Below, piece after piece: positions 24 through 38,462 of a DNA stretch of 42,653 nucleotides. Position 1 is the stretch's first letter; each line of letters begins with the position of its first letter. The notes beneath the pieces are model-generated. The model was not told the DNA's origin. It saw only the letters and a list, made by a program, of their open reading frames with translations, and made no database searches. Origin of the DNA: a virus. The position numbers and the translations under genes were made by a program. Location: the IMG/VR virus record IMGVR_UViG_3300046028_005287, positions 1-42,653 of that record; one strand, written 5' to 3'.

Positions 24-1511
24 TTAATTATGTTCCTGCCAGTTTACAATGCCCACAGCATCATCATTAGTTGTAGTGGCTAACGCTGCCAAACACCATA
101 TGTCTGATACACCTGCTATAGTTCTACCCAACTGTTGGCTAAAGTCTATTTCATTGCTAGTAACCTGAGCAGACCCGCCCTTATTAGACCCCACAAATAC
201 ACCTTGTGTTATTACTTTGCCGTCAGATAATGCTGTAGCAGATATGTCATACTCTACTGTGCTGTCTGTGTCAGCACTGGTCCAACTGGCGCCAGTCAGT
301 GTGGGATTGAGAATAATGCGATATGCAAAAGCTGCTTGTTGTAGTCCATACACATCGAATGCTGTAGGCACTACGATAGAGTCTAAGCATGTTGACTTCA
401 TACGCAAACATACTAATGGTCTATAAACTGTATTGCTTAGGTTTTTGCCTGTTAGTTCTGTTCCTATAGCACGGGTAAAACTGCGATTACTATAACCGCC
501 TTCTGACATAACTGTAGAACAGATTGCTCGCATTGTAGCTGCGGGTCCGGTGCTGATTAGTTCATATCGCAAGGGTAATGTAGCACTGGTCATATAGACC
601 TTGTTTAATATGTTGGCATGGTGAAAACTGTGACAAAGGATGAACTGTCCGTTAACAACAAATCCACATCGCACTGTCCCTACACCTAACCATTCTATAT
701 CTGTCCAGAAGATTTGTGCTTTGGTTACATCTAATGTTATTCCACTGGCTCCTGTACCATCTAATCTATCACCATTCCACGAAGCCTGGGCAAATTTTTC
801 TGTAGTGTCATCTACTGAACCAGAAGTGTATTTTCTAATAACAAGATTTTTTGTAGTGCCCGCTACTTCAAAGTAAATGCCGTTCTCTGCTCCAAAATAG
901 CCTGCTCGTTGTGTAACGCCTGCGGTAGGAGTGTTCATTACAAAGGTCAACAGAACCAATAGACTCTTACCAGGCTGGTAGGAAAATACTTGTTTAGTCT
1001 GACGAATGGCTGACCCCGCTCCTGTAGCGTCCATCAGAATAGAACTTTCGTTAGGTAAGAAAGAGGAAGTGGCAGCGCCTGTGTCCGCTTGGTCCCACTT
1101 GTATGTGTTGTCAAAGTAACGCAGTCCGCCATCAAACAAAGTATAAGGATTGCTTACACGCAGTCTACCAAACGCATCAGTAGCCGCTGCTCCTAAAGTT
1201 ACTGTGCTAGTGCCAGTTAGGGTAGCATTTACATTACCACCTATAGGCATATAAGATACATCCAGTATGCCGCTTGTGCCAACTTCTGTAATGTGCGTGT
1301 GGACTGGATTTCCTGCACTACTGGTAACATTAACAGTATCAATGAAATTGACGTTTCCTGTAATAGTGATATTTTCAGAACCAAGTGTAACAGGCAAAGG
1401 ATTAGATAATGAGACAATATCACCATTCGCATTATTAGCAAGCATCACCACCTCATATCTTTTTGATATGGTGGGGTCTAAAGAACCAGTCTCTTTTCTA
1501 AATTGTGCCAT
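24..1511 (-). CDS. Fibre-like or capsid-surface structural protein
   Basis: This 495-residue protein has no enzyme motif. Residues 40-125 are rich in short Thr/Val/Asn/Gly strands (for example NITITGNVNF), as in beta-structured phage fibre or decoration proteins. A segment near residues 112-130 (DAFGRLRVSNPYTLFDGG) resembles one I recall from other marine phage structural proteins. The rest is Gly/Thr/Ser rich with few Lys, typical of virion surface proteins. There is no signal peptide, membrane segment or capsid-targeting sequence. Its ATG overlaps the TAA of the upstream gene (TAATG), so it is probably translationally coupled to the late-promoter operon starting near 4722. Structural role is inferred from composition and context; receptor-binding fibre, whisker or head decoration cannot be separated. 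Confidence 0.55.
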   Translation of the reverse strand: MAQFRKETGSLDPTISKRYEVVMLANNANGDIVSLSNPLPVTLGSENITITGNVNFIDTVNVTSSAGNPVHTHITEVGTSGILDVSYMPIGGNVNATLTGTSTVTLGAAATDAFGRLRVSNPYTLFDGGLRYFDNTYKWDQADTGAATSSFLPNESSILMDATGAGSAIRQTKQVFSYQPGKSLLVLLTFVMNTPTAGVTQRAGYFGAENGIYFEVAGTTKNLVIRKYTSGSVDDTTEKFAQASWNGDRLDGTGASGITLDVTKAQIFWTDIEWLGVGTVRCGFVVNGQFILCHSFHHANILNKVYMTSATLPLRYELISTGPAATMRAICSTVMSEGGYSNRSFTRAIGTELTGKNLSNTVYRPLVCLRMKSTCLDSIVVPTAFDVYGLQQAAFAYRIILNPTLTGASWTSADTDSTVEYDISATALSDGKVITQGVFVGSNKGGSAQVTSNEIDFSQQLGRTIAGVSDIWCLAALATTTNDDAVGIVNWQEHN

Positions 1512-2581
1512 TAATTACAATTCCATTTACGCAATGCTTTATTGATACGTGAATCAGGGTCTCTTGCAGTCTTAGCTGAAGTCAATCTTTTCTTCATTCC
1601 GCCCATTCTCGCACAAAATGATTTACGGCGATTTGCTGCCTTTGAGCCAGCTTTCAATTTACTGGGCTCTGTTGTAACAGCAGTAGATAATTTTGAACCT
1701 GGATTTTCACGACGATATGAGTCAACACCTTTTTGATTCAAACCACCAGATTCTGATTTACCTTCTTTACGCTGCCATGCTGCAACTTCATCAACTTGTT
1801 CAACTTCCTCATTTGCTTTTTTTTCGATGGATTTACCAGCATATTTAACTAAAGCCTTATGTCCTCTTTTAGCATCTTTCAGTTTCTTGCCCAACTTAGG
1901 GTCAGCACGAAGCATCCAACCTGGTCGATGATTACCTTTTCCAGTATGAGATTCATCAACTTCCTCATTCATTTTATAACCACGGCTTTTCAAATCAGCA
2001 ACAACATCGTCATGTGATTTACTGTGCTGTTCTTTCTTTTTTGTTTTTGTGTGTTCAACTTCATAGTTATAACCACCCTCGCCACCTTTGTGCCAAATAT
2101 ATGCTTTGCCGTGTTCTGCATGTCTTAGAATACCAACAAGTTTCACTTCATCAATAGATTCAACTTCTTCTTTTTTCATTGAATTTTTTTTTATTTTATT
2201 TAGAGCACTGTTGACACCAGCGGTTCTTTTCTTAGTCCAAGCACCCTCATCTCCAACTTTTTTAACATAAGACGATAAAGTTCGTGTTGACAATTCTTCA
2301 ATAGATTCAACTTCTTCTTTTACATGCCCATATTTCTTTTTATACCAATCAGGCATACCATTCTTTTGTCTGAAATAGCGAACTGTTGCGGAATCGTTTG
2401 CTTGGTCACGATATTTGTTTTCTGCTGCTGTGTTATGACTTTTCATTGCCTCTGCTGCTTTATGTGCATCTTTAGCAATATAAGTTAATTCAGCATCAGT
2501 TTTCTTATGATAATCATGTCCTTCTAATGGATGCCTCTGTGAAGGACGACCCTCTGCGATATGTTGTTTTAATGACTTCAT
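1511..2581 (-). CDS. Modular capsid-targeted protein with EEVE linkers
   Basis: The 356-residue protein starts MKSLKQHIAEG, matching a T4-type capsid-targeting peptide with an IAE|G prohead-protease site. Four acidic linkers, at about 89-96 (EEVESIEE), 138-145 (EEVESIDE), 206-210 (EEVDE) and 258-265 (EEVEQVDE), split it into five very basic modules. Two linkers end in I-x-E, the T4 gp21 cleavage pattern. The last module (about 266-356) contains RRKSFCARMGGMKKRLTSAK and ends RKWNCN; it resembles the phage-specific DUF6321 group. I see no catalytic motif. Its start overlaps the stop of the 703-residue gene by four bases (ATGA). Likely role, by inference: an internal head protein cut into small basic DNA-associated peptides. 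The family name is from memory and moderately secure. Confidence 0.6.
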   Translation of the reverse strand: MKSLKQHIAEGRPSQRHPLEGHDYHKKTDAELTYIAKDAHKAAEAMKSHNTAAENKYRDQANDSATVRYFRQKNGMPDWYKKKYGHVKEEVESIEELSTRTLSSYVKKVGDEGAWTKKRTAGVNSALNKIKKNSMKKEEVESIDEVKLVGILRHAEHGKAYIWHKGGEGGYNYEVEHTKTKKKEQHSKSHDDVVADLKSRGYKMNEEVDESHTGKGNHRPGWMLRADPKLGKKLKDAKRGHKALVKYAGKSIEKKANEEVEQVDEVAAWQRKEGKSESGGLNQKGVDSYRRENPGSKLSTAVTTEPSKLKAGSKAANRRKSFCARMGGMKKRLTSAKTARDPDSRINKALRKWNCN

Positions 2582-4689
2582 GAAATGTTTCCTTTTTTCG
2601 TTCTAAATGAGGTTAGACTAATTCCTTGTTTTTTCAATTCATCATCTTTCTGGTCACCAATACTTGCACCAGTTTCATCACCCGTTAATTCTGAAACAGC
2701 TTTGCCCGTGTTTCTATCTATTTTCTCTTTATTATAGCCTGACATAGGAATGCCGACTTCTGTTCCATAATCAATCTCACTTATCGTCTTTTTTGTTTTT
2801 AATTTGACGAAATATAATTTTCCTTTTTTCTCCACTTGTCCATTTTTTCGATGTGCTTCCTTTGCTGCATTATCACGAATTGCAAATTTTCTCTTGTTTC
2901 CATCTTTATCACACACATAATCAGTTGATTCTCTGACCATTGGTTTTCCTAGTGTTAGAACATTTAATGCACCATTGTCGGATAAGGTTGTTCCTGTTTG
3001 TTCTTTAACATCACTCTTTAACAGTTTCAATGTCTTAGTTACTTCTTCTGCGCTATCACCTGTTACTGTTATTGAAACAGCTTCATTGATGAAATTATCA
3101 AAATCAGTATTGACTTGCTCTTTTACTTTAACTGGCTTTTTCTTTCTTGGTAGTCCTGAACCTGAACCTGAAATGGCTATCTCAACTTTTGGTGTTTTAT
3201 ACTTACCAACTTCGACCAATTTATCATGAACAGAGTGGTGTGTTACTTTACCATTCTTACCATATCTACCAAAGCCTAAGTATGAAAGACCTAACTTCAT
3301 TGCTTCCTGATATGCACCAGATTCTGTTGATGAAGGAACTCTCTGTGTTCCTTTTTTATCTATAGGTAGAGTGTCTTTTTTATTTAATTCGTTTGCTATC
3401 CAAAATTTTGATACATCGTTCCCAGGAGCTTTTGATGTGAACTCTTTTACTCTTTTGAATATGTCCTGAAGTTCTTGTTTTTTCTGCTTAACGATTTCTG
3501 GGTCAGAACTTCTTAAATCCTCTGAGTTATCAAATTCAACATATTTGTCGCCAAACAGTTTTGCATATTCTGTTCGGCTCTTTTGAACACCATCCCATTT
3601 TTCTTTTCTTATGTTCTCAGGTACAGTTCTACCGCCACGTTGACCGCGCTCAATGTTTCTCTGCTGTGATACTTCATCACGGGTATTAACAAGAACCATT
3701 GATGTGTCATATCCTAATTCTTCTAGTTTCTTTTTGATGGTTGAAACCTTCTCGTAATCATCACCTGTTCCATTGATGATTAGTCCATTTCTACCAAGCA
3801 GAGCCAATCTCTGGCGCAATTCTGTAACACTTTTTGCACGACCACGAACAAAGTCTCTCTGTTCGCGCTCAGATTCTGGCATTGTCATATTCAGTCCTTC
3901 TTTATCCATCAAGAACTCAAATGCTTTATCTGAATTGATTTCTACTAACCCATGACCATCAAGTGTGTTACTTAACACATAGTCTTTTCCTGAACCTGGT
4001 CCACCTGCTAGAAATACAGCTTTAAAAATAGCTTTGTCATGAACGCCTTCGATTATCAGTTTCTCAAAAACTGTGTCCATATCTGGTTGAACAAATTCGT
4101 GTATATTCATAGATAGTCTGATTGTTCGCATTAAACTTTTAGCCTCGTTATCGGATAGAGTCTCTGGTATACCTTTTCTGAAAGTCTTAAAGTCATTTTT
4201 TACTGCTGCCTCGCGCATTTTTGTGCCAGACATTCCAGCAGCGCCATCAGCATCAGGGTCGCGTTCACCTGCTGAAATGACTTCTGCGCTCTCAAAATTA
4301 AACTCTTTACCATTATACTTATCAAACAATTTCTGATACTCTGCAATTCTATCAGAACCCGCTACCATAATTATTTTGCTGTATTTTTGCTTACTTAGGT
4401 GTTTAGCAACTTCAATGAACGTGCGAACATCTTCATTTGCCTGCTCAAAATTGGCATATGAAAACATTTTACGAAGATATTTGATTTTCTGCTGAACAGA
4501 AAGAGGATTTTTCTTTGAATCTTGGCTGCGCGAAGCATATATTACATGGTCAGCACCAAGTTTTTTTGCTGTATCGACTACCTTTTTGACCAATAAACCG
4601 TGGCCTATTGTCGGCGGATTGAATCGGCCAAACGCGAAAACGATTGTTTTATTTTTATTGGCTTCTGCCAAAAAGTCTGAAAAATGCAT
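2578..4689 (-). CDS. Capsid-targeted nucleotidyltransferase/P-loop kinase polyprotein
   Basis: A 703-residue multidomain protein. Residues 1-10 (MHFSDFLAEA) form a T4-type capsid-targeting sequence with an LAE|A cleavage site. Residues 15-200 are an HxGH-type nucleotidyltransferase with GRFNPPTIGH (21-30) and SGTKMRE (154-160, ISxTxxR type), closest in style to NMN adenylyltransferases and other cytidylyltransferase-like enzymes. Residues 220-415 are a P-loop kinase (GGPGSGKD at 229-236) of the polynucleotide kinase/zeta-toxin style. The C-terminal 170 residues hold a VTGDSAEEVTKTLKLL module seen in other phage proteins, and no enzyme motif. Two more candidate protease sites, IIE214|G and INE536|A, fall at domain borders. 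Two overlapping TATAAATA boxes lie 33-48 bases upstream, and a GAGG ribosome site precedes the ATG. Substrates are unknown. Confidence 0.75.
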   Translation of the reverse strand: MHFSDFLAEANKNKTIVFAFGRFNPPTIGHGLLVKKVVDTAKKLGADHVIYASRSQDSKKNPLSVQQKIKYLRKMFSYANFEQANEDVRTFIEVAKHLSKQKYSKIIMVAGSDRIAEYQKLFDKYNGKEFNFESAEVISAGERDPDADGAAGMSGTKMREAAVKNDFKTFRKGIPETLSDNEAKSLMRTIRLSMNIHEFVQPDMDTVFEKLIIEGVHDKAIFKAVFLAGGPGSGKDYVLSNTLDGHGLVEINSDKAFEFLMDKEGLNMTMPESEREQRDFVRGRAKSVTELRQRLALLGRNGLIINGTGDDYEKVSTIKKKLEELGYDTSMVLVNTRDEVSQQRNIERGQRGGRTVPENIRKEKWDGVQKSRTEYAKLFGDKYVEFDNSEDLRSSDPEIVKQKKQELQDIFKRVKEFTSKAPGNDVSKFWIANELNKKDTLPIDKKGTQRVPSSTESGAYQEAMKLGLSYLGFGRYGKNGKVTHHSVHDKLVEVGKYKTPKVEIAISGSGSGLPRKKKPVKVKEQVNTDFDNFINEAVSITVTGDSAEEVTKTLKLLKSDVKEQTGTTLSDNGALNVLTLGKPMVRESTDYVCDKDGNKRKFAIRDNAAKEAHRKNGQVEKKGKLYFVKLKTKKTISEIDYGTEVGIPMSGYNKEKIDRNTGKAVSELTGDETGASIGDQKDDELKKQGISLTSFRTKKGNIS

Positions 4690-4713
4690 TTTTTTGCCTC
4701 TACAGCAAGTTGT

Positions 4714-5187
4714 TTATGTCTTATTTATATATTTATATGTTTCAACATAGTCTGTGCATACACCAAAAGGTTGAATTTCTTCTATCTCTTTTGTATTCCA
4801 GTATTGCTCTGGCATGACCAGAACTGTAAAATCATCGACTTTTGGTTTACCTGGATATGCCCATATTATGTTCTTATTGGTTAGTGTGTAATCATCGGTA
4901 TTGTGCCAAAAGTAATGAGGGAAAAACTCTAACTGTGAACAGTACCTTAGTGCTTCGGCATTTTTACAATGAATCCATAGATGTGCAACATGTTGAAATA
5001 ACCATTCTTGGTTAATCACATATTCACATTCATCATGGCCAAGATAGAGTTTTTGTTTATGGACGCGCAAATCAATCTCAACATCAAACACTAGATTTTC
5101 AGAAATTATACTATCAATATGGTCAGGATTATTCTCATTTGGCTTATCTGGTCCGTTTAAGTTACCACGATGTGATATTATAAGCAT
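4714..5187 (-). CDS. Glycerophosphodiester phosphodiesterase-like protein
   Basis: About 157 residues beginning MLIISHRGN. The HRG near the N-terminus, the acidic EIDLR near residue 40 and LGHD near residue 50 match the metal-binding pattern of GDPD/PI-PLC-like TIM-barrel proteins. It is shorter than typical GDPDs (around 240 residues), so it is a trimmed version, as in some polysaccharide loci. I place the start at the ATG whose first base is the last base of the upstream TGA; a TTG codon directly before it is less likely. It is the last gene of the glycan cassette, which suggests a role with sugar-phosphate or glycerol-phosphate substituents. Its 3' end holds the late promoter of the next gene. 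Activity is uncertain. Confidence 0.6.
   Translation of the reverse strand: MLIISHRGNLNGPDKPNENNPDHIDSIISENLVFDVEIDLRVHKQKLYLGHDECEYVINQEWLFQHVAHLWIHCKNAEALRYCSQLEFFPHYFWHNTDDYTLTNKNIIWAYPGKPKVDDFTVLVMPEQYWNTKEIEEIQPFGVCTDYVETYKYINKT
4722..4737 (-). promoter_or_regulatory. Two tandem T4-type late promoter boxes
   Basis: Two exact, adjoining TATAAATA copies on the minus strand (4737-4730 and 4729-4722), 33-48 bases upstream of the 703-residue capsid-targeted gene, within the end of the GDPD-like gene. They would drive the last three genes of the window late, as expected for head proteins. Confidence 0.8.
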
Positions 5188-5870
5188 CAATAATACTCCC
5201 TCTTACCGCCTTTTCGGACAACACAATTCATAATTTTTTGTGATATGACGTTAAGACCACAGTCACTTATTGCATTCAAAAGCAGTCCATGTGGTGGATT
5301 ATCGGCACTATTTGGATACTTCAAATCGAAAAATTCATTTATCATGAAGTTTGATAGCTCAACCATCTTGTCACGATTCGTAATGAAGATACAATCATTA
5401 GGAAACACATTTCCTGAATCGACTGTGATACTGTTTTCTATGTCCTGAAAGCTGAATTTTTCATAAATCAAATCGCACCGAGTTTTAATGACACAATCAT
5501 ACTTGCTTTCTGCTTCAAAGTGTTTCATCATTTGAATACCAATATTGAACTTTCTATATTGTTTATAGCAAATATCCAAATCCTTTAATGCAGAGTGCAT
5601 TCTCTCTTGGTCTTTTCTGATATCGACTTCATTTTCAATACAGAAACCTTTAACATTAAGACCATCAAACTTCGATGCAATCTGCTCTGTTGTCAGAACA
5701 ACATCATCAAAGTCTCTTATCCTACCCTTTATGAACGGATGATGGTCATACTGTAAATTGTATGTTGAAACATAAATGTCAGGATTCAAGTGACTGAATG
5801 TATCATGAAAACTCTGTTTACATTCATCCCACGTTCTGATATTGCCTACAAGAATGATTGCGGTTTTCAT
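5187..5870 (-). CDS. Phage-type glycosyltransferase-like protein
   Basis: A 227-residue protein starting MKTAIILVGNIRTWDEC. It shows an IVGxxRT-type opening, SYxxYD-like strands and a central KTRCDLIYEKF segment (about 130-140). That KxRxDL core is shared by a family of short glycosyltransferase-like proteins in phages and surface-polysaccharide loci. The acidic TRCD could be the nucleotide-sugar or metal site. It overlaps its neighbours at both ends (1 base downstream, 4 bases upstream), so it is tightly embedded in the cassette. No membrane anchor is visible, so it is probably cytosolic. The specific sugar and acceptor cannot be read. Confidence 0.55.
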   Translation of the reverse strand: MKTAIILVGNIRTWDECKQSFHDTFSHLNPDIYVSTYNLQYDHHPFIKGRIRDFDDVVLTTEQIASKFDGLNVKGFCIENEVDIRKDQERMHSALKDLDICYKQYRKFNIGIQMMKHFEAESKYDCVIKTRCDLIYEKFSFQDIENSITVDSGNVFPNDCIFITNRDKMVELSNFMINEFFDLKYPNSADNPPHGLLLNAISDCGLNVISQKIMNCVVRKGGKREYY

Positions 5871-6571
5871 GGCTTTAAAATATATGCAGTCGGTGCTTTT
5901 ATAAAAGTATTTTCTAGCTCAAGACCAAATTCGTTGACGAATCTATCAACAGCATTTGATTCACTCCAGCTATGATATGCATATTCATCAAATACGACAA
6001 CACCACCAGGAACAATTCTATCCCACAGATTATTCAGTGCGTCATACGTAGGTTTGTCCAAGTCCATGTCCAAGTAAAGAATACTGATTCTTAGACCAGG
6101 TCTTTCTTTTAAATATTGCTCTGTTGTGATACTAACATCACCTTGAACCAATTCATACTTATTACTAGAGAATCCAGCATTTTCAATTTTAGCTTTTATG
6201 CCTTCTATTGAAATCTCACTGTCTTGTAAATTATTATCACGGGTAAATACTTGCATCATTGTTTCTCTGTCGATATCATCTTCAAGAGCGTTGACAAAAT
6301 CACTACCAAAGAAATCAAAGCCAATGACTTTTTTCAAACTATTTGGTTCATACATATCCACTATCTTCAACCAAGAAAGCAATCCAGAACCTTTAAATAC
6401 TCCACATTCAACTATATCACCATGAAGATTTTTAGTCAAATCGTAAAAGTGTTTCCTTGACATGAGTTTATTGAAAACATTTCTATCGTTGCTGAAAATA
6501 AAATCATTGAAACTATCGTAAATCTTTTGATTAATGTCAATGCGACCATCTGTATTATATAAATTTGCCAT
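5867..6571 (-). CDS. TylF/MycF-family O-methyltransferase
   Basis: About 234 residues. The SAM-binding motif is GDIVECGVFKGSGLLSW (around residues 51-67), followed by VIGFDFFG. ISILYLDMDLDKPTYDAL and GGVVVFDEYAY hold the metal-binding Asp residues typical of TylF (macrocin O-methyltransferase) proteins. The family methylates sugar hydroxyls, and phage members usually sit in glycan clusters, as here. I chose the ATG at 6571 because GAGGAATATA lies just upstream; an in-frame TTG at 6583 is less likely. It overlaps the downstream gene by four bases. It probably caps or decorates the sugar made by the surrounding glycosyltransferases. The family is secure, the substrate unknown. Confidence 0.8.
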   Translation of the reverse strand: MANLYNTDGRIDINQKIYDSFNDFIFSNDRNVFNKLMSRKHFYDLTKNLHGDIVECGVFKGSGLLSWLKIVDMYEPNSLKKVIGFDFFGSDFVNALEDDIDRETMMQVFTRDNNLQDSEISIEGIKAKIENAGFSSNKYELVQGDVSITTEQYLKERPGLRISILYLDMDLDKPTYDALNNLWDRIVPGGVVVFDEYAYHSWSESNAVDRFVNEFGLELENTFIKAPTAYILKP

Positions 6572-6583
6572 TATATTCCTCAA

Positions 6584-7384
6584 TTAACTATTTAACCATT
6601 CTCTTACAGGTCCTTCTCTATCACCACTTCTATTATCTGAGATAATACCATGATACTTATGAATCACAAAACACTTATCTGTTCCAATGAAGTGTGAAAC
6701 AAGATTGTGAAATTTAGCACCACCCCAACTTGAATACTCTAAATTTATTTTGTCGAGTAGTTTAACAGTAATGAAATGACATGAAAAATCTGTTATGACA
6801 TAACAAGATGTAAATCGTATACCTTCATCTGTTACACTTACGCCGGGTCGATTGTGGAAGTCATTGTTATTGCTGCCTGTTTGGTCCTCAACGAAAAATG
6901 TTTTTTCATCAGAACTTATATATCGCTGTCTATCAGAATACTCTAGTATCTCATTATTACTAATTCGTTCCTTAGCACAGATGAATGGTGCAACAAAATA
7001 AACAACACAATCAGGTAAATTTAAAATTTCATTGAAGTAGTTTACTGATAGAATACAATCAGATTTCAATATCAATACTCTATCATCACCTGAATAATTC
7101 TGTTTCACATATGAAGAAATTGTTGCAACATCAGCACCAAGAGATTTTGGTGTATTTTCTTCATAATTAAATATTCTTAATTCATTGAAAAAATTACCAA
7201 GACTATAAATCTGAAACAAATTCACAAGAAATGAATTAGGCAATTCATGCTGGTGTGTATTATATAGGTAAAGACAATCAAATTTTTTATCTGTTGGTGT
7301 TTGCTTCGATAAACTATAAAATGTCAACTCAGCATGATTTTTTGTTAATGTTGAGTGTGTGATAAAGAAAACTATATTTTTCAT
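6584..7384 (-). CDS. GT-A-like glycosyltransferase, cassette member
   Basis: A 266-residue protein opening MKNIVFFITHSTLTKNH. TFYSLSKQTPTDKKFDCLYLYN resembles the first strands of GT-A glycosyltransferases, and VLILKSDCILS (about 105-115) could supply the DxD-type metal/nucleotide site. No signal peptide or transmembrane helix is visible. It begins inside the 3' end of the HAD/nucleotidyltransferase gene (four-base overlap), so the two are co-translated. The assignment rests on fold-like features and location; residues after about 150 are not recognisable. Confidence 0.5.
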   Translation of the reverse strand: MKNIVFFITHSTLTKNHAELTFYSLSKQTPTDKKFDCLYLYNTHQHELPNSFLVNLFQIYSLGNFFNELRIFNYEENTPKSLGADVATISSYVKQNYSGDDRVLILKSDCILSVNYFNEILNLPDCVVYFVAPFICAKERISNNEILEYSDRQRYISSDEKTFFVEDQTGSNNNDFHNRPGVSVTDEGIRFTSCYVITDFSCHFITVKLLDKINLEYSSWGGAKFHNLVSHFIGTDKCFVIHKYHGIISDNRSGDREGPVREWLNS

Positions 7385-8748
7385 TTATAGTGAGACAAAA
7401 AGTGATTCAAATCCTCAGGTGTTCCAAGACCCCACATACCACTAATCTCTTTATTTCTGATTTTCTTGCCATCTTGAATAGCTTCATTGAATACAGGACA
7501 GACATAGAACTCATTGTTGGTGCGAACATTCTTTTCAATCATTTGTTCAGCATATTTAACATAGTCCGAACCTTTTTTCCAGTAATAGATACCAACTGTA
7601 GCGTTATCTGAAATAGGATTCTTTTCTGCAACTTCATTAATAAATCCATCATCACCAATCTTAGCGAATGACCACTTAGGATGTGTTGCTTTGAATGTTA
7701 CTATTCCGCCATCAATATTGTCTGCTGTGAATGCATATAGACATTCATTTGAGTTCCACTCTACGAATTGGTCTGAGTTTGCCATCAAAAGAGGTTCATC
7801 ATTATCAATCAATTCTTTTGCAAGTAATGTGGTACATGCAGCACCCTCAGTGATACCATCGACCTGAACGATATCACAATTTGGTGCAATTAGATTCAAC
7901 ATCTGTTTGAGATTGTATTTCTCATAATGTTCTTTTTGGACAAGAAAGATATAATGTGCATCAACATTAAGATTCTGAACAACAACCTGAATCATTGGTG
8001 TGCCATTAACTTCAATCAAAGGTTTAGGAAACGTATAACCTGCTTGTGCAAATCTGCTTCCTGCACCTGCCATAGGAATAAGAACATTCATCTTTTTATT
8101 TCTCCAGGGTACATTAGTTCGTTTAGTATCATTCAAAATATCTACTGCTTCAATTATTTTATTCATTGTTAAATCATAAGGGTCTTTCACTGGCACAAGA
8201 TGTGCACCAGAATTCAGTGCACCTTCTCTACCAATGTGACTATCTTCGATAATCACTGTATTTTTAGGTAGAACATTCAGTGCTGTCATGCATTTCCAAT
8301 ACATTTCAGGAAATGGTTTTGTTCGACTCACATCTTCATTGCTCACGAAATAATCAACATACCTAAGAACACCAATACTCAGTAGTGATAACTTAACAGT
8401 TTCACGAATCGAATTGCTTGCAACAGCAATTTTTATGTCTTGCAGTTTCAACATCTTAAACATTTCAACAAGCATATGATTGACAGGAAATTCTTCTATC
8501 AACCGGAGTGTTGCTGATTGTTTGTTTCTCCAGACTAAATCAAAATACTCTCTACTCAATCCCTTTTCAGCAGATAGCATTTCTAACTTTTTAGTCGTAT
8601 TGAGACCATCATACCTGCTCAAGTGTTCCTCTTTACTAATGACCATTCTACTATCGACCATTTCAAGTGCAGAGTTTAATGCGTGATAGTGTAACTCTCT
8701 ACTATCAATTAATACGCCATCTAAATCAAATATTATAAGTTTGTTCAT
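7381..8748 (-). CDS. HAD phosphatase fused to sugar nucleotidyltransferase
   Basis: A 455-residue fusion. Residues 1-210 are a HAD-family beta-phosphoglucomutase-like phosphatase: FDLDGVLID (7-15), ASNS (110-113) and IIEDSHIG (166-173), the four canonical HAD motifs with an inserted cap. A linker leads to a second domain from about 220 (MNVLIPMAGAGSRFAQAGYT), with the GxGxRF signature and PKPL of nucleotide-sugar pyrophosphorylases. The pairing suggests one polypeptide trims or isomerises a sugar phosphate and activates it as an NDP-sugar for the neighbouring transferases. Key residues in both halves look intact. It overlaps both neighbours by four bases. The nucleotide and sugar are not predictable here. 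Confidence 0.8.
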   Translation of the reverse strand: MNKLIIFDLDGVLIDSRELHYHALNSALEMVDSRMVISKEEHLSRYDGLNTTKKLEMLSAEKGLSREYFDLVWRNKQSATLRLIEEFPVNHMLVEMFKMLKLQDIKIAVASNSIRETVKLSLLSIGVLRYVDYFVSNEDVSRTKPFPEMYWKCMTALNVLPKNTVIIEDSHIGREGALNSGAHLVPVKDPYDLTMNKIIEAVDILNDTKRTNVPWRNKKMNVLIPMAGAGSRFAQAGYTFPKPLIEVNGTPMIQVVVQNLNVDAHYIFLVQKEHYEKYNLKQMLNLIAPNCDIVQVDGITEGAACTTLLAKELIDNDEPLLMANSDQFVEWNSNECLYAFTADNIDGGIVTFKATHPKWSFAKIGDDGFINEVAEKNPISDNATVGIYYWKKGSDYVKYAEQMIEKNVRTNNEFYVCPVFNEAIQDGKKIRNKEISGMWGLGTPEDLNHFLSHYK

Positions 8749-9560
8749 ACTGTTTCATTAAATGAATTAAAAAGAACGAATGGGTCATGACCTAACTGAT
8801 GGTCGGGTATCGCATGTAGCTCAAACAATTCTGGCTCCATTAGATATGAGAGTAACCAAAGACCTTGGTCATCATCTACCATATCAATATCTAATAGCTT
8901 ATTAAAACTTTTTTCCATCAGATTTAACATTTCAGGCCACATCTTTTTATGTGCAACAACTTTTGCGCCTAAGATATAAACATCATTTGTGCCAACAATC
9001 GTTTCAATTGATTTACCATCATATTCTTTATATGAGAATAGATGAATTTTTTCCTGATTGAAATTATAGCTCCACTTTTCGCTGCTTGGTATGTTGCTTT
9101 CGCTGCGACAATATCCAAAATCAATCCATGCTACCATATCATTCTTAACAAGATTGTTTTGTATTGCGATGTTAGGAAACAAAGGTTTCAGATTAGTAAC
9201 AAGAACATAATCTTGATTCCAGTATTCAGGATTCTTCATCTGTGAAGGATGTATTCTCTGAATGAAACTTTGTTTTTCTTGTATGTCTTTAATGACCTTT
9301 CTCATTTCTGAGAATTGTTCAACAACATCAAATGGCACAACTGTAACCGTAGCATTGCAACCAACACATAGTTCTTTCAATCTTTCAACTAAATCGGTAG
9401 ATGTGAAAACAGTTATGTCAGTATGCAACTTAGTTAGGTGTTTAAATCTTTCAAGGTAAACATCAGATGACCTTTGGAGATAATGTGGTAGTCCTTTATC
9501 AGGTGTCCAATCACCACGGCCTATATCATAAAAAGCGGTAACAATAGAAATATCATCCAT
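8745..9560 (-). CDS. HtrL/YibB-WlaTC-type glycosyltransferase
   Basis: About 271 residues from MDDISIVTAFYDIGRGDW, the characteristic opening of HtrL/YibB and WlaTC-type proteins found in lipopolysaccharide and capsule loci. WIDFGYCRS (around 160-170) and DDDQGLW near the C-terminus fit the conserved acidic centre. An upstream in-frame start at 9653 would overlap the previous gene by about 100 bases. I prefer the ATG at 9560, preceded by TTGAGAAAAAAT, which leaves an 8-base overlap. Role: transfer of a sugar in the glycan cassette. Family moderately secure, specificity unknown. Confidence 0.7.
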   Translation of the reverse strand: MDDISIVTAFYDIGRGDWTPDKGLPHYLQRSSDVYLERFKHLTKLHTDITVFTSTDLVERLKELCVGCNATVTVVPFDVVEQFSEMRKVIKDIQEKQSFIQRIHPSQMKNPEYWNQDYVLVTNLKPLFPNIAIQNNLVKNDMVAWIDFGYCRSESNIPSSEKWSYNFNQEKIHLFSYKEYDGKSIETIVGTNDVYILGAKVVAHKKMWPEMLNLMEKSFNKLLDIDMVDDDQGLWLLSYLMEPELFELHAIPDHQLGHDPFVLFNSFNETV

Positions 9561-10392
9561 ATTTTTTCTCAATAGTTTCTTTCCATTGTGATATTCTATC
9601 ATACTGATGTGCGATTGTAAAGACTTCTCCTGTTGATGTTGCAATATTACCATCTACCATTATAGGACTTGGGTCAAGTAGTTTTGGTCGGAATTCGTTT
9701 ACTTTACTTGGGTCAGCGGTTGTTCCTAATTGACATGCCCAACCATTCTCAGAACGCAAATACAAGTTTGAAGATTTATATGGTTCCATTGATACCATAA
9801 AATTAAATGTCGATTGGTCGCAAATAGGAATAGGACGATTGATTGCAGCAGTAAAGATATTAATACACAAATCGCGTATGGCATGTCCTCTGCCAGCAAG
9901 AACACCTACATTATAGATTTCTTTATCTTTAAATTTATTGTGAATGTATGGACCATATGTCTCAAGGAGATTCTGATTACCCCATGGTTCATCCTCATAC
10001 AGCATACTCTCAGATGAAAATATACACTGTTTTCCTGAATTCAGTAATACCTTTTCAAGATACTCAACAGGATTTTTCTGAAAAACTACATCTTTAACAT
10101 CTGTTGTGATTACGAATCTATAATCTTTATCACTCAAATAATCATAGATGTGGAGGAATCTCTCGACATGAACAGCAAGTCTTGAATTGTAAACTAAGTC
10201 ACCATTATCATTTTGACCGAAACCAACAACTTTAAAGCCAGCATCTGCAACTTTAACAACAGTCTCTTTATCACAATTCATCAAAAATAATACTTTATCA
10301 CCCTCAAACCCGGATTGATTTATCGAATTAATCCAGTATTTTAATTTTGACCAATCATAATTCGTTGAACAACCAATTATCAAATCACGCAT
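9553..10392 (-). CDS. GT-A glycosyltransferase, first gene of glycan cassette
   Basis: A 279-residue protein starting MRDLIIGCSTNYDWSKLKYW. The RFVITTDVKDVVFQKNP segment (about 92-108) is a DxxD-type GT-A metal site. EIYNVGVLAGRG and CDQSTFNFM (about 190-200) fit the acceptor side of glycosyltransferases that read an extended sugar chain. Similar proteins occur in T4-like cyanophages. It is the first gene of seven overlapping genes running to 4714. No promoter is visible in the 18 bases before it, so it is probably read through from 10749. Soluble; no anchor. Confidence 0.7.
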   Translation of the reverse strand: MRDLIIGCSTNYDWSKLKYWINSINQSGFEGDKVLFLMNCDKETVVKVADAGFKVVGFGQNDNGDLVYNSRLAVHVERFLHIYDYLSDKDYRFVITTDVKDVVFQKNPVEYLEKVLLNSGKQCIFSSESMLYEDEPWGNQNLLETYGPYIHNKFKDKEIYNVGVLAGRGHAIRDLCINIFTAAINRPIPICDQSTFNFMVSMEPYKSSNLYLRSENGWACQLGTTADPSKVNEFRPKLLDPSPIMVDGNIATSTGEVFTIAHQYDRISQWKETIEKKYG

Positions 10393-10410
10393 AACAACTC
10401 CATTAAAAAA

Positions 10411-10749
10411 TTACTTATCTTTTATATATCTCTTAAAATTCACAATCTTTGAATTAACTTGACCCGGTGTATCTTTGACATAATTGTTTACCAAAGTGTC
10501 TGTTCCCTCTTGACCTGCACCCGATTGAGGAAGTATATCAGACTTGATTTCTTCTGCTACCATCTTAGCCAACAGTCTTGGCTCAACGCCTTTAAATCCC
10601 TTTGCTACTCTTGCGGCATAATATGAAACATCATGATTCTTTTCGGTTTTTCTTTTTAGAACATCTTTCAATGCATCCAGTGCTTTTTTATAATTATCTT
10701 TAAAAAATAATTTACCAATGTTGCCTAAGTCTTCCTTTATCTGAGACAT
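10411..10749 (-). CDS. Small conserved phage protein, unknown function
   Basis: A 112-residue, Lys-rich protein (MSQIKEDLGNIGKLFFKDNY...) predicted mostly helical, ending in a basic tail (NFKRYIKDK). I recognise no motif, signal peptide or membrane segment. It starts two bases after the stop of the 94-residue gene, implying co-translation, with a GAGGATAAC ribosome site upstream. It lies between the glycan cassette and the late ligase cluster. Function cannot be assigned. Confidence 0.6.
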   Translation of the reverse strand: MSQIKEDLGNIGKLFFKDNYKKALDALKDVLKRKTEKNHDVSYYAARVAKGFKGVEPRLLAKMVAEEIKSDILPQSGAGQEGTDTLVNNYVKDTPGQVNSKIVNFKRYIKDK

Positions 10750-10750
10750 G

Positions 10751-11035
10751 TTATCCTCTGGTCAAATTTAATATTTTTTGAATTTGTGTTTCAAGTGCTG
10801 TTCTTCGATTGGGCCATTTAATTATAGGCTGGTCTGCTGTTTGAAGAAGTTTAGTCAAAAAAGGCAAAATTAATTTCTCAACTTGATGCAACCTTGCCTT
10901 ATACTCCTCAACAGTTTCTTCCTTCTCTGCAATAACATCAGTGTATTCTTCCTCATCTACAGCAGTAAAACCGAAGTCATGAGAATCATCATATTCTTCA
11001 AGTATTTTATTGATATCATATTTAATTTCTGGCAT
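10751..11035 (-). CDS. Small conserved T4-like phage protein
   Basis: A 94-residue protein with an acidic N-terminal half (EEYDDSHDFGFTAVDEEEY) and a helical C-terminal half ending KWPNRRTALETQIQKILNLT. I recall the WPNR-containing C-terminus from short conserved proteins of marine T4-like phages, without a known function. The 5' end overlaps the end of the GIY-YIG gene by 14 bases, suggesting the endonuclease gene landed directly in front of it. Confidence 0.65.
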   Translation of the reverse strand: MPEIKYDINKILEEYDDSHDFGFTAVDEEEYTDVIAEKEETVEEYKARLHQVEKLILPFLTKLLQTADQPIIKWPNRRTALETQIQKILNLTRG

Positions 11036-11666
11036 TATTTACCTTTTCTATTTTCTGTATATCTTTATAAGGAAAACTATTGTTATAATAATGTCCCTTC
11101 ACAGTATTTTTGTTATATCCATTTTTCTCACACCATAACACTAAATTTTCTGTAATAATAGTATCACCATTCATATGGATTTTCCATTTTAGTGTTCTTG
11201 GACTGTCTCTTTTTCCTTTCCAGGGACTGACTTGGACGCCTTTTTTCCCTTTGTTCCAAGGAATTTTTCCCTTTAGTGCAGCAGACAATTTATCCTGGTG
11301 TTCTTTAGTTCTAGCAGGTTTGGGCTTTCTCATTTTATGTTTTGTTTCGTCACTCAATTTCCATTTTTTTCCTGTTTGATTCGGAGGAATATTTCCACCT
11401 TCATGTAAATTATAATCACCGAATTCTTTTATATACTCTATCTCTTTTTGTAGTGTTTCACTCTCATTATCACTTTCAAACAAAATTTCATACTTAAATG
11501 AGTTTTTACCGTATTTCCTTATGGCTTTATAAAAAGGATTATCACTTTTTTCAAAAACTGAAGGACTAAAATGTTCACGAATTCTATGTTCAACATTGGT
11601 TCTTTTAGTATATCCGATATAACTTTTGTTGTTTACTTTATTGGTTATCTTGTAAATTATAGGCAT
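11022..11666 (-). CDS. GIY-YIG homing endonuclease with NUMOD3-like repeats
   Basis: A 214-residue free-standing homing-type endonuclease. The N-terminal catalytic domain reads IIYKITNKVNNKSYIGYT, with GIY replaced by IIY, YIG present at 16-18 and a downstream Arg in EHRIREHF. Residues 95-150 hold NUMOD3-like DNA-binding helices (SDETKHKMRKPKPARTKEHQ, LSAALKGKIPWNKGKKG). The C-terminus ENLVLWCEKNGYNKNTVKGH is like the helix-turn-helix tail of phage homing nucleases. It is preceded by AGGAG and by a T4 late box at 11686-11693, and it overlaps the next gene by 14 bases. Expected role: spreading its own gene between related phages. Confidence 0.85.
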   Translation of the reverse strand: MPIIYKITNKVNNKSYIGYTKRTNVEHRIREHFSPSVFEKSDNPFYKAIRKYGKNSFKYEILFESDNESETLQKEIEYIKEFGDYNLHEGGNIPPNQTGKKWKLSDETKHKMRKPKPARTKEHQDKLSAALKGKIPWNKGKKGVQVSPWKGKRDSPRTLKWKIHMNGDTIITENLVLWCEKNGYNKNTVKGHYYNNSFPYKDIQKIEKVNNARN

Positions 11667-11685
11667 AATATTTTCTCCTACACAT

Positions 11686-11693
11686 TATTTATA
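11686..11693 (-). promoter_or_regulatory. T4-type late promoter box
   Basis: An exact TATAAATA on the minus strand, 20 bases before the ATG of the GIY-YIG gene. This is the T4 late promoter element read by gp55-RNA polymerase, and gp55 is encoded in this window. The short leader includes AGGAG. Confidence 0.75.
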
Positions 11694-11718
11694 AAATAAC
11701 AAACTTCAACGCATATAA

Positions 11719-12948
11719 TTACTTAGTCCATTGTTTTGCAACATTGAAATTGGCGTGGGCAAATTCAAGCCGGTCAACCAATTTTACCGCTCCACCAGTC
11801 AGTTTTGATACAGCAACAAAACCTTCTGGTGCAGTTATGCGATAACCATCATCAGTGCGAACGAATGTTTTTGTTACTTGATTCAGTTGACCTAGCTTAT
11901 TAACAATCATTAATTTGGCTTCGACAATCTTGTTCTGTAAATCAAGAATCAATTTTATCTGCTCGGCACTCTGGCGATAGAACCTCATGACTTCATTTTT
12001 TTCAATCAATCGCTTCTCTTTTGTGTCAGATTTTTTAGCAGATAGTATTTCTTTATTCATTCTATCTTCAACCCACTTAATAAGCTGTGTTGTATGTTGT
12101 GCTGTATTTTTTATTGCTTCACCAGCACGAACTTTTGTGTTATTGAATGTTTTTATCTGTATCTTATATACTTCACTTGATGCTATTCGATTAAGCGTGA
12201 GGGCATTAATCTGATTGAGCATTCTTCCTGCATCAGATAGAATGCCTGTAATCTGAATAGTTTCTTGTTTTGTAAATGATGCTGTGCCTGATGCATCAAT
12301 GAATGATGCGTCCCTGAACCAAACATCCTTTGTAGGTTTCAATCTACCTATATCAATATTGAAGGATGACTTCATATCTTCAATAGATTTACCTGTATAT
12401 GATGTGTGAAATACAATACCCATTTGTGCAACAGATATACTTTTAGCTAATTTAGAATCTTCAGGAACAGCATATACGATTGTATTAGGCTGAAATGTGA
12501 CATAACTCTCACCATCAATGACTTGCTTCTGTAAATCATCATTTGTGAACATCATATCGCCCTGCAGGATACCTTCAATACCCAACTTAGGTAAGTAGCG
12601 TAGGGCAATCTTCAGTTTATCATTCAAACCTTCTGAAGGATGATTATTGTCAATATCTTCATCGGTGTAATTCAGCTTTGCGTTTTTCGCAAAAACACTT
12701 TTTGTTCCAACAAAAAACTTACCATTCTCTGGATTGATGCCACATATAACAGCAGGCGCGCCATCCCATTTTGTTGTTGTGAATACTTTAGTGTCTGCAT
12801 GTCCTGCAAGCATATCACGCAATGAACGTAAGAAATTGATTGAATCTCTTGCGCCTCTAATGCCGAAATTAAGAACATCATCCTCGATATGCTCCAGGTG
12901 GACGTTCTTACCTTCTGTTGATTCTATTAAAAATTGTGAGAAGTTCAT
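11719..12948 (-). CDS. Capsid-targeted polynucleotide ligase-like protein
   Basis: A 409-residue protein. Residues 1-10 (MNFSQFLIES) nearly copy the capsid-targeting peptide of the 703-residue protein (MHFSDFLAEA) and end in an LIE|S protease site. Residues 60-63 (KWDG) form the KxDG nucleotidylation motif of ATP-dependent ligases. ILQGDMMF (127-134) fits motif III, and PEGFVAV (374-380) with VKLVDR (388-393) fits motifs IV and V. The catalytic set therefore looks complete, with an inserted helical region at about 225-350. It follows the 260-residue gene by two bases, downstream of a late promoter (13756-13763). RNA or DNA end joining is the likely chemistry, and delivery within the capsid is inferred. 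A capping-type or protein-modifying nucleotidyltransferase is the alternative. Confidence 0.7.
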   Translation of the reverse strand: MNFSQFLIESTEGKNVHLEHIEDDVLNFGIRGARDSINFLRSLRDMLAGHADTKVFTTTKWDGAPAVICGINPENGKFFVGTKSVFAKNAKLNYTDEDIDNNHPSEGLNDKLKIALRYLPKLGIEGILQGDMMFTNDDLQKQVIDGESYVTFQPNTIVYAVPEDSKLAKSISVAQMGIVFHTSYTGKSIEDMKSSFNIDIGRLKPTKDVWFRDASFIDASGTASFTKQETIQITGILSDAGRMLNQINALTLNRIASSEVYKIQIKTFNNTKVRAGEAIKNTAQHTTQLIKWVEDRMNKEILSAKKSDTKEKRLIEKNEVMRFYRQSAEQIKLILDLQNKIVEAKLMIVNKLGQLNQVTKTFVRTDDGYRITAPEGFVAVSKLTGGAVKLVDRLEFAHANFNVAKQWTK

Positions 12949-12950
12949 TT

Positions 12951-13733
12951 TTATATTTCTTTCGCTTTACTACCTATAACTTTTTTAGGTAATATTAATA
13001 TTCTGGCGCCACTATATGTTTTACCATCAACTTGATAATTTCTTCCTGACGTATATCGTGCTGCGATTATTGCCGTGTAGTCTCGTTTCATAAATTCAGA
13101 AACATCAGGATTATAACTAGCATGTGTAGTAAAATCCAATATATGATTATCACCACTTTTCGTGAATTTCACATCACCCTGACCTATAACATGAATATTA
13201 TCTATGTTGTATTGTGGAGAACCAAATTCTGGTCCATAAACCGCTTTACCAATAAGTTTTTTATCTTTTATAGTTCTATAAAATCTTTCTTTTTTTTCAA
13301 CAATAAGTTTTTGAATTTTTGAAATTGTTCTGAGAAATTCAATCACAGTTTTATCTTTTGATATTGAACCAGATTTTCTACCATCAGCTTTATCTGTTAT
13401 ACCACTGTATTGTTGAAATGAACCAGCATCTTTTCCCATTTTATGGGAAATAAAACAAATATCAATAAATTTTTTCTTACTTTCATCAAAAGTTACCAGT
13501 GCTATATCAGCTTTAGGTGTACCCTCAACTTTATTGGCGCCATATATGTTTTTAAAAATATGTTTTCCAACTTTTACAGTTATAGGTTTATTAATTTTAA
13601 ATATATATTGATTTATCTGTTGCAATACGGCAAGTTCACCTCTCTCTGTTGGAGAGGGTGAGTTCAATTTATATGATTTATTCAATGCATTATATTTGTA
13701 AAGTAAACCATGTATTTTTACAGAACCTGCCAT
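12951..13733 (-). CDS. Possible PD-(D/E)xK nuclease-like late protein
   Basis: A 260-residue basic protein (MAGSVKIHGLLYKYN...). Residues about 72-102 read TPKADIALVTFDESKKKF then IDICFISHKMGK. Spacing of Asp and Lys on adjacent strands resembles the PD-(D/E)xK core, but Ser replaces the usual acidic residue before xK, so activity is doubtful. No capsid-targeting sequence is present. A T4 late box lies 23-30 bases upstream and AAAGGAG directly before the start. It is co-transcribed with the capsid-targeted ligase-like gene, so the two may work together. Function otherwise unknown. Confidence 0.5.
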   Translation of the reverse strand: MAGSVKIHGLLYKYNALNKSYKLNSPSPTERGELAVLQQINQYIFKINKPITVKVGKHIFKNIYGANKVEGTPKADIALVTFDESKKKFIDICFISHKMGKDAGSFQQYSGITDKADGRKSGSISKDKTVIEFLRTISKIQKLIVEKKERFYRTIKDKKLIGKAVYGPEFGSPQYNIDNIHVIGQGDVKFTKSGDNHILDFTTHASYNPDVSEFMKRDYTAIIAARYTSGRNYQVDGKTYSGARILILPKKVIGSKAKEI

Positions 13734-13755
13734 TTAAATACTCCTTTTTGTTGAG

Positions 13756-13763
13756 TATTTATA
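13756..13763 (-). promoter_or_regulatory. T4-type late promoter box inside gp41 stop
   Basis: An exact TATAAATA whose central TAA is also the stop codon of the gp41 gene. It lies 23 bases before the start of the 260-residue gene and can drive that gene and the capsid-targeted ligase-like gene as a late unit. Confidence 0.8.
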
Positions 13764-15153
13764 CTTTAATTCCGCCGAACTTAGCTTTGAAATTATGTCG
13801 ATTATTCGATTCATATAGAGGCGTTTCATCTTGTATTTGTCCTGAATCAACAATTTTCTGTGCATTAGCCTCTACATCATACAATTTCATCTTCGATTTG
13901 TCAACACCTATAACAAATTTCTTGTTTATGGTGGGTGAACCATAGCGATTTTTAAGCTGTTTCACCATAATCTGGTTCAATTGCTCTAACTCCTCACTTG
14001 AAATCAGTGCAAACATGAAGTCTGCCGTTGCTGGTAGACCGAAGGATTCACTGGTATCTTCAAGACCAAGGTCTGTGTTGCTGAAACCACTCCGTGTTGT
14101 CTGTGTTGCAGAAAAGATAGGCACATTGAATTCAACAGCAAGACCACGAAGTTCTTCGGCAATAGCTTTGATGTAAGTATAAGAGTTCACTGATGGACTT
14201 ATTTTCATACGTGATGAACAACAAATATTCAAATAATCAATAAAAATGATATCAGGATAAAAGTTCTTTTTAAGTCTCAACTCATTCAACAGCGACCTGA
14301 AGTGACCAGAATGTGCTGATGCTGTAGGATATTCCTTGATAATCAGCTTACCCTGAACTTTAGACCGCATAGCACTGAATTTTCTATCATAATCTTCACG
14401 GGATATCATATGTAAATCATCTATTGATATGTTCAATAGGTTAGCATCAATACGTTCAGCAATTCGTTCCTCTGCCATTTCCATTGTGATATACAAAACA
14501 TTAAAACCCTGACTGATACATGATGCTGACATATGACACATGAACAGTGATTTACCAACACCAGTACCTGCAAGCGCAATATTAAGTGTCTTGGGCGTTA
14601 CACCACCCTTTGTTATCTTATTGAAAAAGTCTAAGTCAAAAGGTATTTTCTTCTCTTTCTTATGATAGAATTCATAGCGAGAATCATGTTGGTTGATATA
14701 ATCATGACCCACATTAGAATCGAATGAAACACCAAGTGCAGTAGATAAAAGTTCTGGAATCTGACCCTTTGTCTTAGTGTTAGATTTATCATCAAGAATG
14801 GAAACTGATTCCATGATAGCATTGAAGATTGCTTTATCTTGACAGAACTTTTCAGTATGCTCAACCAACCATTCGATGGGTGTTGTTTCATCTTTTGAAC
14901 GATGTAAATCATTCAGTATATCATTTACACCTCTCAACTGTTCATCTGTTACATCTTTTCTCTCATTGAAATTGATAATCAGTGCTTCATATGTGGGCAA
15001 ATTTTTATATTTGTTTACGTATGCATCAATTTCAGTAAATAGAAGTCTTTCATTTCCATCTGTGAAGTATTGTTTTGAAATAAACGGTAAAACTTTTCGT
15101 GTGTATTCCTCACAATAAATCAGATTCTTCAGGATTGTCTGCTCTAGTCTCAT
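13759..15153 (-). CDS. 41: Replicative DNA helicase, T4 gp41-like
   Basis: A 464-residue DnaB-family hexameric helicase that unwinds DNA ahead of the polymerase and works with the primase. The N-terminal helical domain covers about 1-140. The RecA-like motor begins near 165, with Walker A AGTGVGKS (195-202), an ITMEM segment and Walker B-like IIFIDYLNI, then SATQTTR. Length is close to T4 gp41 (475). It overlaps the upstream 120-residue gene by 44 bases and sits just downstream of uvsX, as in T4 relatives. All key motifs look intact. Confidence 0.95.
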   Translation of the reverse strand: MRLEQTILKNLIYCEEYTRKVLPFISKQYFTDGNERLLFTEIDAYVNKYKNLPTYEALIINFNERKDVTDEQLRGVNDILNDLHRSKDETTPIEWLVEHTEKFCQDKAIFNAIMESVSILDDKSNTKTKGQIPELLSTALGVSFDSNVGHDYINQHDSRYEFYHKKEKKIPFDLDFFNKITKGGVTPKTLNIALAGTGVGKSLFMCHMSASCISQGFNVLYITMEMAEERIAERIDANLLNISIDDLHMISREDYDRKFSAMRSKVQGKLIIKEYPTASAHSGHFRSLLNELRLKKNFYPDIIFIDYLNICCSSRMKISPSVNSYTYIKAIAEELRGLAVEFNVPIFSATQTTRSGFSNTDLGLEDTSESFGLPATADFMFALISSEELEQLNQIMVKQLKNRYGSPTINKKFVIGVDKSKMKLYDVEANAQKIVDSGQIQDETPLYESNNRHNFKAKFGGIKV

Positions 15154-21487: not shown

Positions 21488-21521
21488 ATCATTCTCCTTA
21501 TAATTAAGCGAGTTAAAATTA

Positions 21522-21540
21522 GTGACCCCGAAGGCGTCAC
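21522..21540 (-). terminator. UUCG-loop hairpin terminator
   Basis: On the minus strand GTGACGCC, TTCG, GGGTCAC: a C(UUCG)G-capped stem with one bulged G, followed by TAATTTTAA. It lies five bases past the stop of the 58-residue gene and would end the clamp-loader/regA unit. The U-tract is weak. Confidence 0.65.
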
Positions 21541-21544
21541 ATTT

Positions 21545-38460: not shown

Positions 38461-38462
38461 AT

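Follow-up and report, generated by a model that had tools for sequence, protein, structure and literature searches.

Three unrelated proteins encoded in the IMG/VR virus record IMGVR_UViG_3300046028_005287 begin with short peptides of the kind that target internal proteins to the capsid of phage T4, and they are very probably cargo of the phage head. The 42,653-nucleotide record, called the window here, comes from part of the genome of a T4-like marine myovirus of the Kyanoviridae type, and all the genes of interest lie on its minus strand. The proteins are a 703-residue nucleotidylyltransferase-kinase (2578-4689; NMNAT-kinase), a 409-residue protein of the DUF6267 family (11719-12948) and a 356-residue string of small domains, or beads (1511-2581). 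Each would dock on the gp22 scaffold through its capsid-targeting sequence (CTS), be cut after a Glu by the gp21 protease, be released into the head and leave it with the DNA.

Three gene starts carry a T4-type leader

The predicted gene starts are MHFSDFLAE/A (NMNAT-kinase), MNFSQFLIE/S (DUF6267 protein) and MKSLKQHIAE/G (bead protein); the slash marks the position after Glu. An earlier, sequence-only reading had singled out these three similar N-termini, and all of them are found where it placed them. It had also pointed to a matching LQE/A site in the capsid protein, which is present in gp23 (40916-42250) as GILQE/ASP (residues 50-53, 42092-42103). By the same kind of sequence pattern, the gp22 fragment (42287-42610) contains SALIE/A, with its LIE/A site at 42557-42568.

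In the CTS of T4 IPIII, residues 4 and 7 act in targeting and residues 8 and 10 in processing, and gp21 cuts after [LI]xE (PMC9026906). IPII and IPIII both begin MKTYQEFIAE/A in the T4 sequence, and a wider CTS motif finds IPII, IPIII, gp24, gp2 and the unassigned gene e.5 in the T4 segment examined. The window leaders are hydrophobic at both targeting positions, with His at the second in the bead protein, and have I or L before x-E. Their Glu is at position 9 or 10, the nine-residue leaders being one residue shorter before the first Phe.

The three peptides were written as the octamer [FYL]xx[FYHL][LI]xE[ASG]. Among the 49 window proteins (13,377 residues) it matches five times, only in the three leader-bearing proteins: at their N-termini and twice inside the NMNAT-kinase, at domain boundaries (E214/G and E536/A). 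These internal copies had been missed in the sequence-only reading, as had the repeated acidic [LIV][DE]E linkers of the bead protein. Composition shuffles of the window proteins gave a mean of 0.77 matches overall and 0.014 at N-termini, and three N-terminal matches were reached in 0/2000 shuffles. At internal Met codons of comparison phage genomes the octamer rate was 4/2410, against which three octamer starts among 48 give a descriptive Poisson p of about 8e-5. Since the pattern was written after the three peptides had been seen, all the window p-values are descriptive, and the tests in other phages, which are independent, matter more. A short motif defined after the fact leaves some room for N-termini that are alike by chance. 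This explanation was rejected, and we give it almost no weight: the shuffles, the internal-Met rate, the conservation of the leaders and the enrichment of tagged proteins in the proteomes of other phages all speak against it, and for the NMNAT protein the homologues refute it.

Tagged orthologues occur in cyanophage virions

Mass spectrometry of purified virions has detected the NMNAT orthologue in four cyanophages, each time in a protein that begins with a CTS. The published virion proteomes hold nucleotidyltransferases T4-GC190 in S-SM1 (PMC3037559), S-SZBM1_140 in S-SZBM1 (PMC9146016) and gp154 in S-CREM2 (PMC10665884), and an NMNAT in S-SCSM1 (PMC9602691). Their N-termini are MKKFSAFLNE/A, MRFRQFIIE/A, MKNFSSFLTE/A and MKSFLQFLKE/A, respectively. 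T4-GC190 is an apparent counter-example, being virion-associated while its member Syn1_161 is without a CTS; it was rejected as such because the S-SM1 protein, the source of the proteome, has one. Proteins with DUF6321, the domain that ends the bead protein, are listed in virions of S-SCSM1 (gp029) and S-CREM2 (gp137).

Six annotated starts of S-CREM2 fit a strict CTS pattern, and five of the six proteins are virion-listed (hypergeometric p 0.003): gp6, a SAM hydrolase (S-AdoMet_lyase by Pfam), gp13, the APH/ChoK-like kinase gp14, gp136 and gp154. For S-SCSM1, one of two CTS-like starts is virion-listed; pooled with S-CREM2, the Fisher p is 0.001. The S-CREM2 virion protein gp12, annotated as Cas9, has RFASFMAE/A near its N-terminus. 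With the key residues of IPIII matched, all four virion NMNATs tagged, DUF6321 proteins in virions and the peptide conserved in homologues, the earlier proposal of T4-type capsid-targeting peptides on virion cargo is supported. As a separate observation, the CTS-like loci of S-CREM2 lie at 3837-5081 and 7704-12846 and include the SAM lyase, the APH-like kinase, gp13 and gp12. If it is carried in the head, the SAM lyase could be an immediate anti-restriction agent.

The virion lists also bear on the idea that the N-terminal helix serves some cellular complex, by docking or membrane association, and has no role in head assembly. The helix is amphipathic, and the DUF6267 and NMNAT genes lie beside the replication genes uvsX and gp41, as such a role might have it. 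Tagged proteins in virions argue the other way, and a conserved Glu at position 9 or 10 followed by the domain start, in an [LI]xE shared with gp23 and gp22, would be unexpected for a cellular docking peptide. We regard this explanation as highly improbable.

Leaders are conserved and domains begin after a Glu

Of the 57 distinct contexts of NMNAT, about 40 retain the leader M[KRHD]FxxF[LI]xE. Among 30 DUF6267 homologues, about 16 have a leader and the others, beginning MAKNTHLEH..., do not. In the homologues that have it, the DUF6267 leader is well conserved (MNFSQFLTEA, MNFKDFLVEA, MKFSEYITEA, MKSLRTYIAED), and it occurs also in Melnitz (MLTLINFSKYITE/D), C48C1 (MLDFKNFITE/Q) and the soil phage DLP_6 (MKFTQFLAE/S). 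Homologues lacking the peptide, which the sequence-only reading had named as a refutation, thus exist in part, DUF6267 being leader-free in many cyanophages. A CTS is present or absent on otherwise the same enzyme body in a module-like way, and since the DUF6267 body aligns without it, the leader is a detachable module. The argument that homologues lack the peptide, which would then be non-functional, was examined and set aside. Its premise is true for DUF6267 in many cyanophages and for some NMNATs, and the apparent counter-example T4-GC190 is accounted for as above. In 100 kb of Melnitz scanned, CTS-like gene starts fall in one 10-kb cluster (12203-13288, 13272-14528 and 21306-21701) that includes an unassigned 131-residue protein beginning MKNFKNHIAEE.

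A common rule was found at the junctions between domains. The GRPSQ bead, which begins GRPSQRHPLEGH, occurs in 19 distinct contexts, five after an N-terminal CTS (for example MKSFKTFIAE/, MKNFKTFITE/ and MKSLKQHIAE/) and 14 after an internal, mostly acidic linker (EEVEELDE/, KEEVELTE/, EETQLDE/). In 19/19 it is preceded by Glu, with L, I, V or M two residues before that Glu. The LS..TL..Y bead follows [LIVM]xE in 15/15 genuine cases, a tally that leaves out two pattern matches in unrelated sequence, and a HicA-like bead (PF07927, E=1.9e-10) follows an [LM]xE/ linker in 6/6. The kinase begins E/G[VIL]xD in every context, whether it is fused to NMNAT or encoded by a separate open reading frame (ORF) with a Glu near its start. 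The contexts are related by descent, so these counts are not independent events, though the upstream sequences differ.

Judged by sequence, domains that start directly after [LIVM]-x-E, be it in a leader or a linker, indicate cargo polyproteins cut by a gp21-type prohead protease. We lean towards a broader reading in which marine T4-like phages make polyproteins of enzymes and small basic beads, linked by repeated targeting and cleavage peptides, that are loaded as one chain and cut inside the head by the prohead protease, with domains (NMNAT, kinase, HicA-like, DUF6321) swapping between tagged gene and bead. The conserved E/G at bead and kinase starts could instead belong to the domain fold and stay uncut, so that the proteins are whole in the head. 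This is unlikely in our view. The kinase residues right after the Glu (GVHDxxIFKAVF) are conserved themselves, as a structural role would predict, but the rule extends to domains that are not related to each other and to upstream sequences that otherwise have nothing in common. One and the same domain can also stand behind an N-terminal CTS or, in a different phage, behind an internal linker.

Some further beads were seen along the way. The HicA-like bead, beginning MPESSMKTRDVHAH, occurs in marine phage bead proteins (loci L105, L112, L131, L062, L063, L071 and L074) and is possibly a packaged HicA-like effector. At 4721-6889 of DLP_6, a nucleotidyltransferase runs on, after GEDLTE/, into a very basic bead; a similar bead of C48C1 is a separate gene beginning MLSFKQFVSE/.

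Domain architecture of the three proteins

The leader of the NMNAT-kinase (residues 1-9, 4663-4689) is conserved in homologues and has a predicted helix at residues 3-10. Pfam and PHROGs place a CTP_transf_like nucleotidyltransferase first and a Zeta_toxin/AAA_33 kinase second. The former (residues 10-204, 4078-4662; phrog_3041 and phrog_395) is assigned to the NMNAT/cytidylyltransferase-like nucleotidylyltransferases by its CTP_transf_like domain with GRFxPPTxGH, here GRFNPPTIGH. The P-loop kinase spans about residues 215-420 (3430-4047) and resembles polynucleotide and NMP kinases in the PDB. DTVFEKLIIE/G (E214/G215, 4048-4077) lies at the boundary of the two, and NTDFDNFINE/A (E536/A537, 3082-3111) precedes the C-terminal part. 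Both internal peptides are short predicted helices in low-confidence linkers, the second at residues 528-537 within a disordered stretch. The structure model shows two domains and is poor beyond them (predicted local distance difference test score, pLDDT, of 60), so the C-terminal part was read for helix and disorder only. Its best fold match is NadR (PDB 6gyf, E=1.1e-7), and the next PDB matches include NadD-type NMNATs and polynucleotide and NMP kinases. At 21.5 bits against a cut-off of 341, the protein falls outside the NCBIfam nadR equivalog.

The bead protein reads as a leader followed by five beads, split after E10, E96, E145, E210 and E265. After the leader MKSLKQHIAE/ (residues 1-10, 2552-2581) come bead 1, beginning GRPSQRHPLEGHDYHKK and ending in the linker EEVESIEE/ (2294-2551), bead 2, beginning LSTRTLSSYVKK and ending in EEVESIDE/ (2147-2293), bead 3, beginning VKLVGILRHAEHGK and ending NEEVDE/ (1952-2146), and bead 4, beginning SHTGKGNHRPGW and ending EEVEQVDE/ (1787-1951). 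Bead 5 (1511-1786, including the stop codon) is a DUF6321 domain (PF19846, E=1.7e-17) that passes the Pfam gathering score with 64.2 bits against 28.5. The beads are mostly basic, and the last two have isoelectric points of 9.9 and 10.9.

The DUF6267 protein, assigned by Pfam and PHROGs, consists of the leader MNFSQFLIE/ (residues 1-9, 12922-12948) and a body resembling covalent nucleotidyltransferases such as ligases (11719-12921). In its AlphaFold2 model the mean pLDDT is 77 and residues 1-17 are disordered; in the structure models leaders and junction peptides alike are disordered or isolated helices. Motif I (KxDG) of the covalent nucleotidyltransferase (ligase/capping) superfamily is found as K60-W/Y-D62-G63 in 24/24 DUF6267 sequences. 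The conserved Q129GD131, E375G and K389 stand at what we take to be the places of ligase motifs III-V. The fold search against the PDB ranked ATP-dependent DNA ligases best, with RNA ligases and capping enzymes lower, but all matches were weak (E>=0.12), and the sequence search against the PDB returned coiled-coil noise only. On the invariant motif and the motif positions, the earlier label "ligase-like" is reasonable but not proven.

How far the packaging reading extends to DUF6267

The claim that all three proteins are loaded into the head fits the NMNAT and DUF6321 orthologues found in virions, but less well the DUF6267 protein. S-SZBM1_141, a DUF6267 protein without a leader, is absent from the S-SZBM1 proteome, in which its neighbours 139 and 140 were detected. 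DUF6267 proteins without a CTS are common and occur in many cyanophages. Among 34 loci with both genes, which are not independent, 16 have the tag on NMNAT only, 12 on DUF6267 only, three on both and three on neither, of which at least one (Melnitz) is a pattern miss. The CTS is thus on one or the other, and tags on both genes or on neither are uncommon, as though the pair needed a single tag; one tag may serve a complex, or there may be just two clades. These observations favour a reading in which true cargo is limited to the NMNAT and bead proteins and the DUF6267 leader is vestigial, or DUF6267 rides with NMNAT. Against it, the leader is well kept where present, including in C48C1, Melnitz and DLP_6, and we treat this narrower reading as possible but doubtful.

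Besides these DUF6267 data and the possible fold role of E/G, several points weigh against packaging as a whole. Some NMNATs have no CTS (Syn1 and the IMG/VR loci L011-L021), and no clear CTS was seen in 100 kb scanned of HTVC008M, a related Pelagibacter phage. S-SCSM1 gp030 has a textbook CTS, yet it carries no virion note. Some entries in the published lists of virion proteins may be contaminants, and the authors of the S-SCSM1 and S-CREM2 studies leave carry-over open (PMC9602691, PMC10665884). The virion location is that of orthologues, not of this phage's own virions; gp21 lies outside the contig; and for marine phages we came across no published cleavage at these sites.

Proposed packaging route and related systems

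By analogy with T4, from which docking, cutting and ejection are drawn, the 9-10-residue N-terminal helix (x-F-x-x-F-[LI]-x-E) would dock each precursor onto the gp22 scaffold core of the prohead. Activated gp21 would then cut after the Glu of [LI]-x-E, and the freed cargo would exit the head with the DNA at infection. Because the peptide recurs between the domains of the NMNAT-kinase, the protease would also split that protein, at the NMNAT/kinase boundary and before the C-terminal part, into separate enzymes. The bead string would be cut at its acidic [LIV]-x-E linkers into at least five DNA-associated peptides. Ready-made enzymes, together with small DNA-binding pieces, probably enter the host along with the phage DNA, and the enzymes would be on hand ahead of all phage gene expression. 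The cargo likely acts in NAD/nucleotide or nucleic-acid-end chemistry at the first moment of infection, as a counter-defence or take-over kit. Given the resemblance of NMNAT plus kinase to NadR, the cargo could repair NAD against NAD-depleting defences; alternatively, the kinase and ligase pair could act in nucleic-acid repair.

T4 IPI, IPII, IPIII and Alt (PMC9026906, PMC3012670) likewise have an N-terminal peptide of about 10 residues with hydrophobic positions 4 and 7, I or L at 8 and E at 10, and gp23 and gp22 have gp21-type [LI]xE sites; the late-type promoters in front may be a further likeness, to judge by the late boxes described below. The window cargo (nucleotidyltransferase-kinase, ligase-like enzyme, bead string) is unrelated to the T4 internal proteins, and peptides are repeated within its proteins. 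The cyanophage reports of NMNAT-like and kinase proteins in purified virions (PMC10665884, PMC9602691, PMC9146016, PMC3037559) state no entry route in their accessible parts, and a CTS would supply the mechanism. Ejection proteins in the heads of phiKZ and SPN3US are also cut after Glu, by gp175/gp245 and ahead of ejection, some at several sites, but the propeptides are mostly much longer in SPN3US, the phiKZ motif is (S or A)-x-E, and the cargo is other (PMC5694885, PMC9026906). Polyvalent proteins (PMC5512222), together with P1 DdrB and DarA, are multi-domain conflict proteins thought to be packaged, and some are processed; some have their own peptidase domains, whereas here the prohead protease would cut CTS-like linkers. 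NadR has the same order of NMNAT domain and P-loop kinase, and the NMNAT-kinase differs from it in its low nadR score and in a likely cleavable interdomain junction.

That a CTS lets T4-like phages carry various proteins has been suggested (PMC9026906). In the literature searched, which did not cover subscription literature, "capsid targeting sequence" and "cyanophage" met in only one paper, a T4 review with cyanophage in its reference list, and DUF6267 and DUF6321 were not mentioned. Tagging of marine enzymes with a CTS appears to be new, and so does the recurrence of the peptide within proteins. T4-like phages rank among the most common marine viruses, and enzymes that are unexplained or suspected carry-over are present in several of their virion proteomes. 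With a readable tag, the proteins that enter the host can be predicted from sequence, as for the virion-listed SAM lyase, kinase and nucleotidyltransferase of S-CREM2; the tag gives concrete cut-site predictions and points to a modular system that would deliver many different effectors.

Late boxes and gene neighbourhood

The sequence-only reading had cited late boxes in front of the operons. T4-type boxes TATAAATA do stand before two units: one (13756-13763) 30 nt before the pair 12951-13733/11719-12948, and two in tandem (4722-4737) before the NMNAT-kinase/bead unit. However, the eight sites in the window, all on the coding strand, are not above chance (at least eight in 19/100 shuffles), and the bead gene has no box of its own. 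It overlaps the preceding gene and would therefore share the NMNAT-kinase transcript. The DUF6267 unit has its box although DUF6267 lies near gp41.

The first gene of that unit (12951-13733), between gp41 and DUF6267, encodes 260 residues with no CTS and no Pfam assignment. In other phages an uncharacterised ORF of about 250-500 residues likewise directly precedes DUF6267. In Melnitz this ORF, gene 15, begins MQGFKTFLSE/A, and S-SCSM1 gp282, from the corresponding cluster, is a virion protein.

Besides the end of gp22 and gp23, the window holds gp19, uvsY, uvsW, gp55, gp47, gp46, gp45, gp44, gp62, regA, gp43, uvsX and gp41, names that, except for gp22 and gp23, were assigned by reading gene order and sequence. 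A block of glycosyltransferase, sugar-nucleotide and methyltransferase-like genes (4714-10392) separates the two cargo units. A GIY-YIG ORF (11022-11666) and an HNH ORF (40231-40788) each have their own late box. UvsW (37546-39206) is present as two ORFs, the first of which terminates in a stretch resembling an intein (NNEVCYFKPNQQLKTKRGTILAKNLSIEDELL), which suggests that an intein here is split or has decayed.

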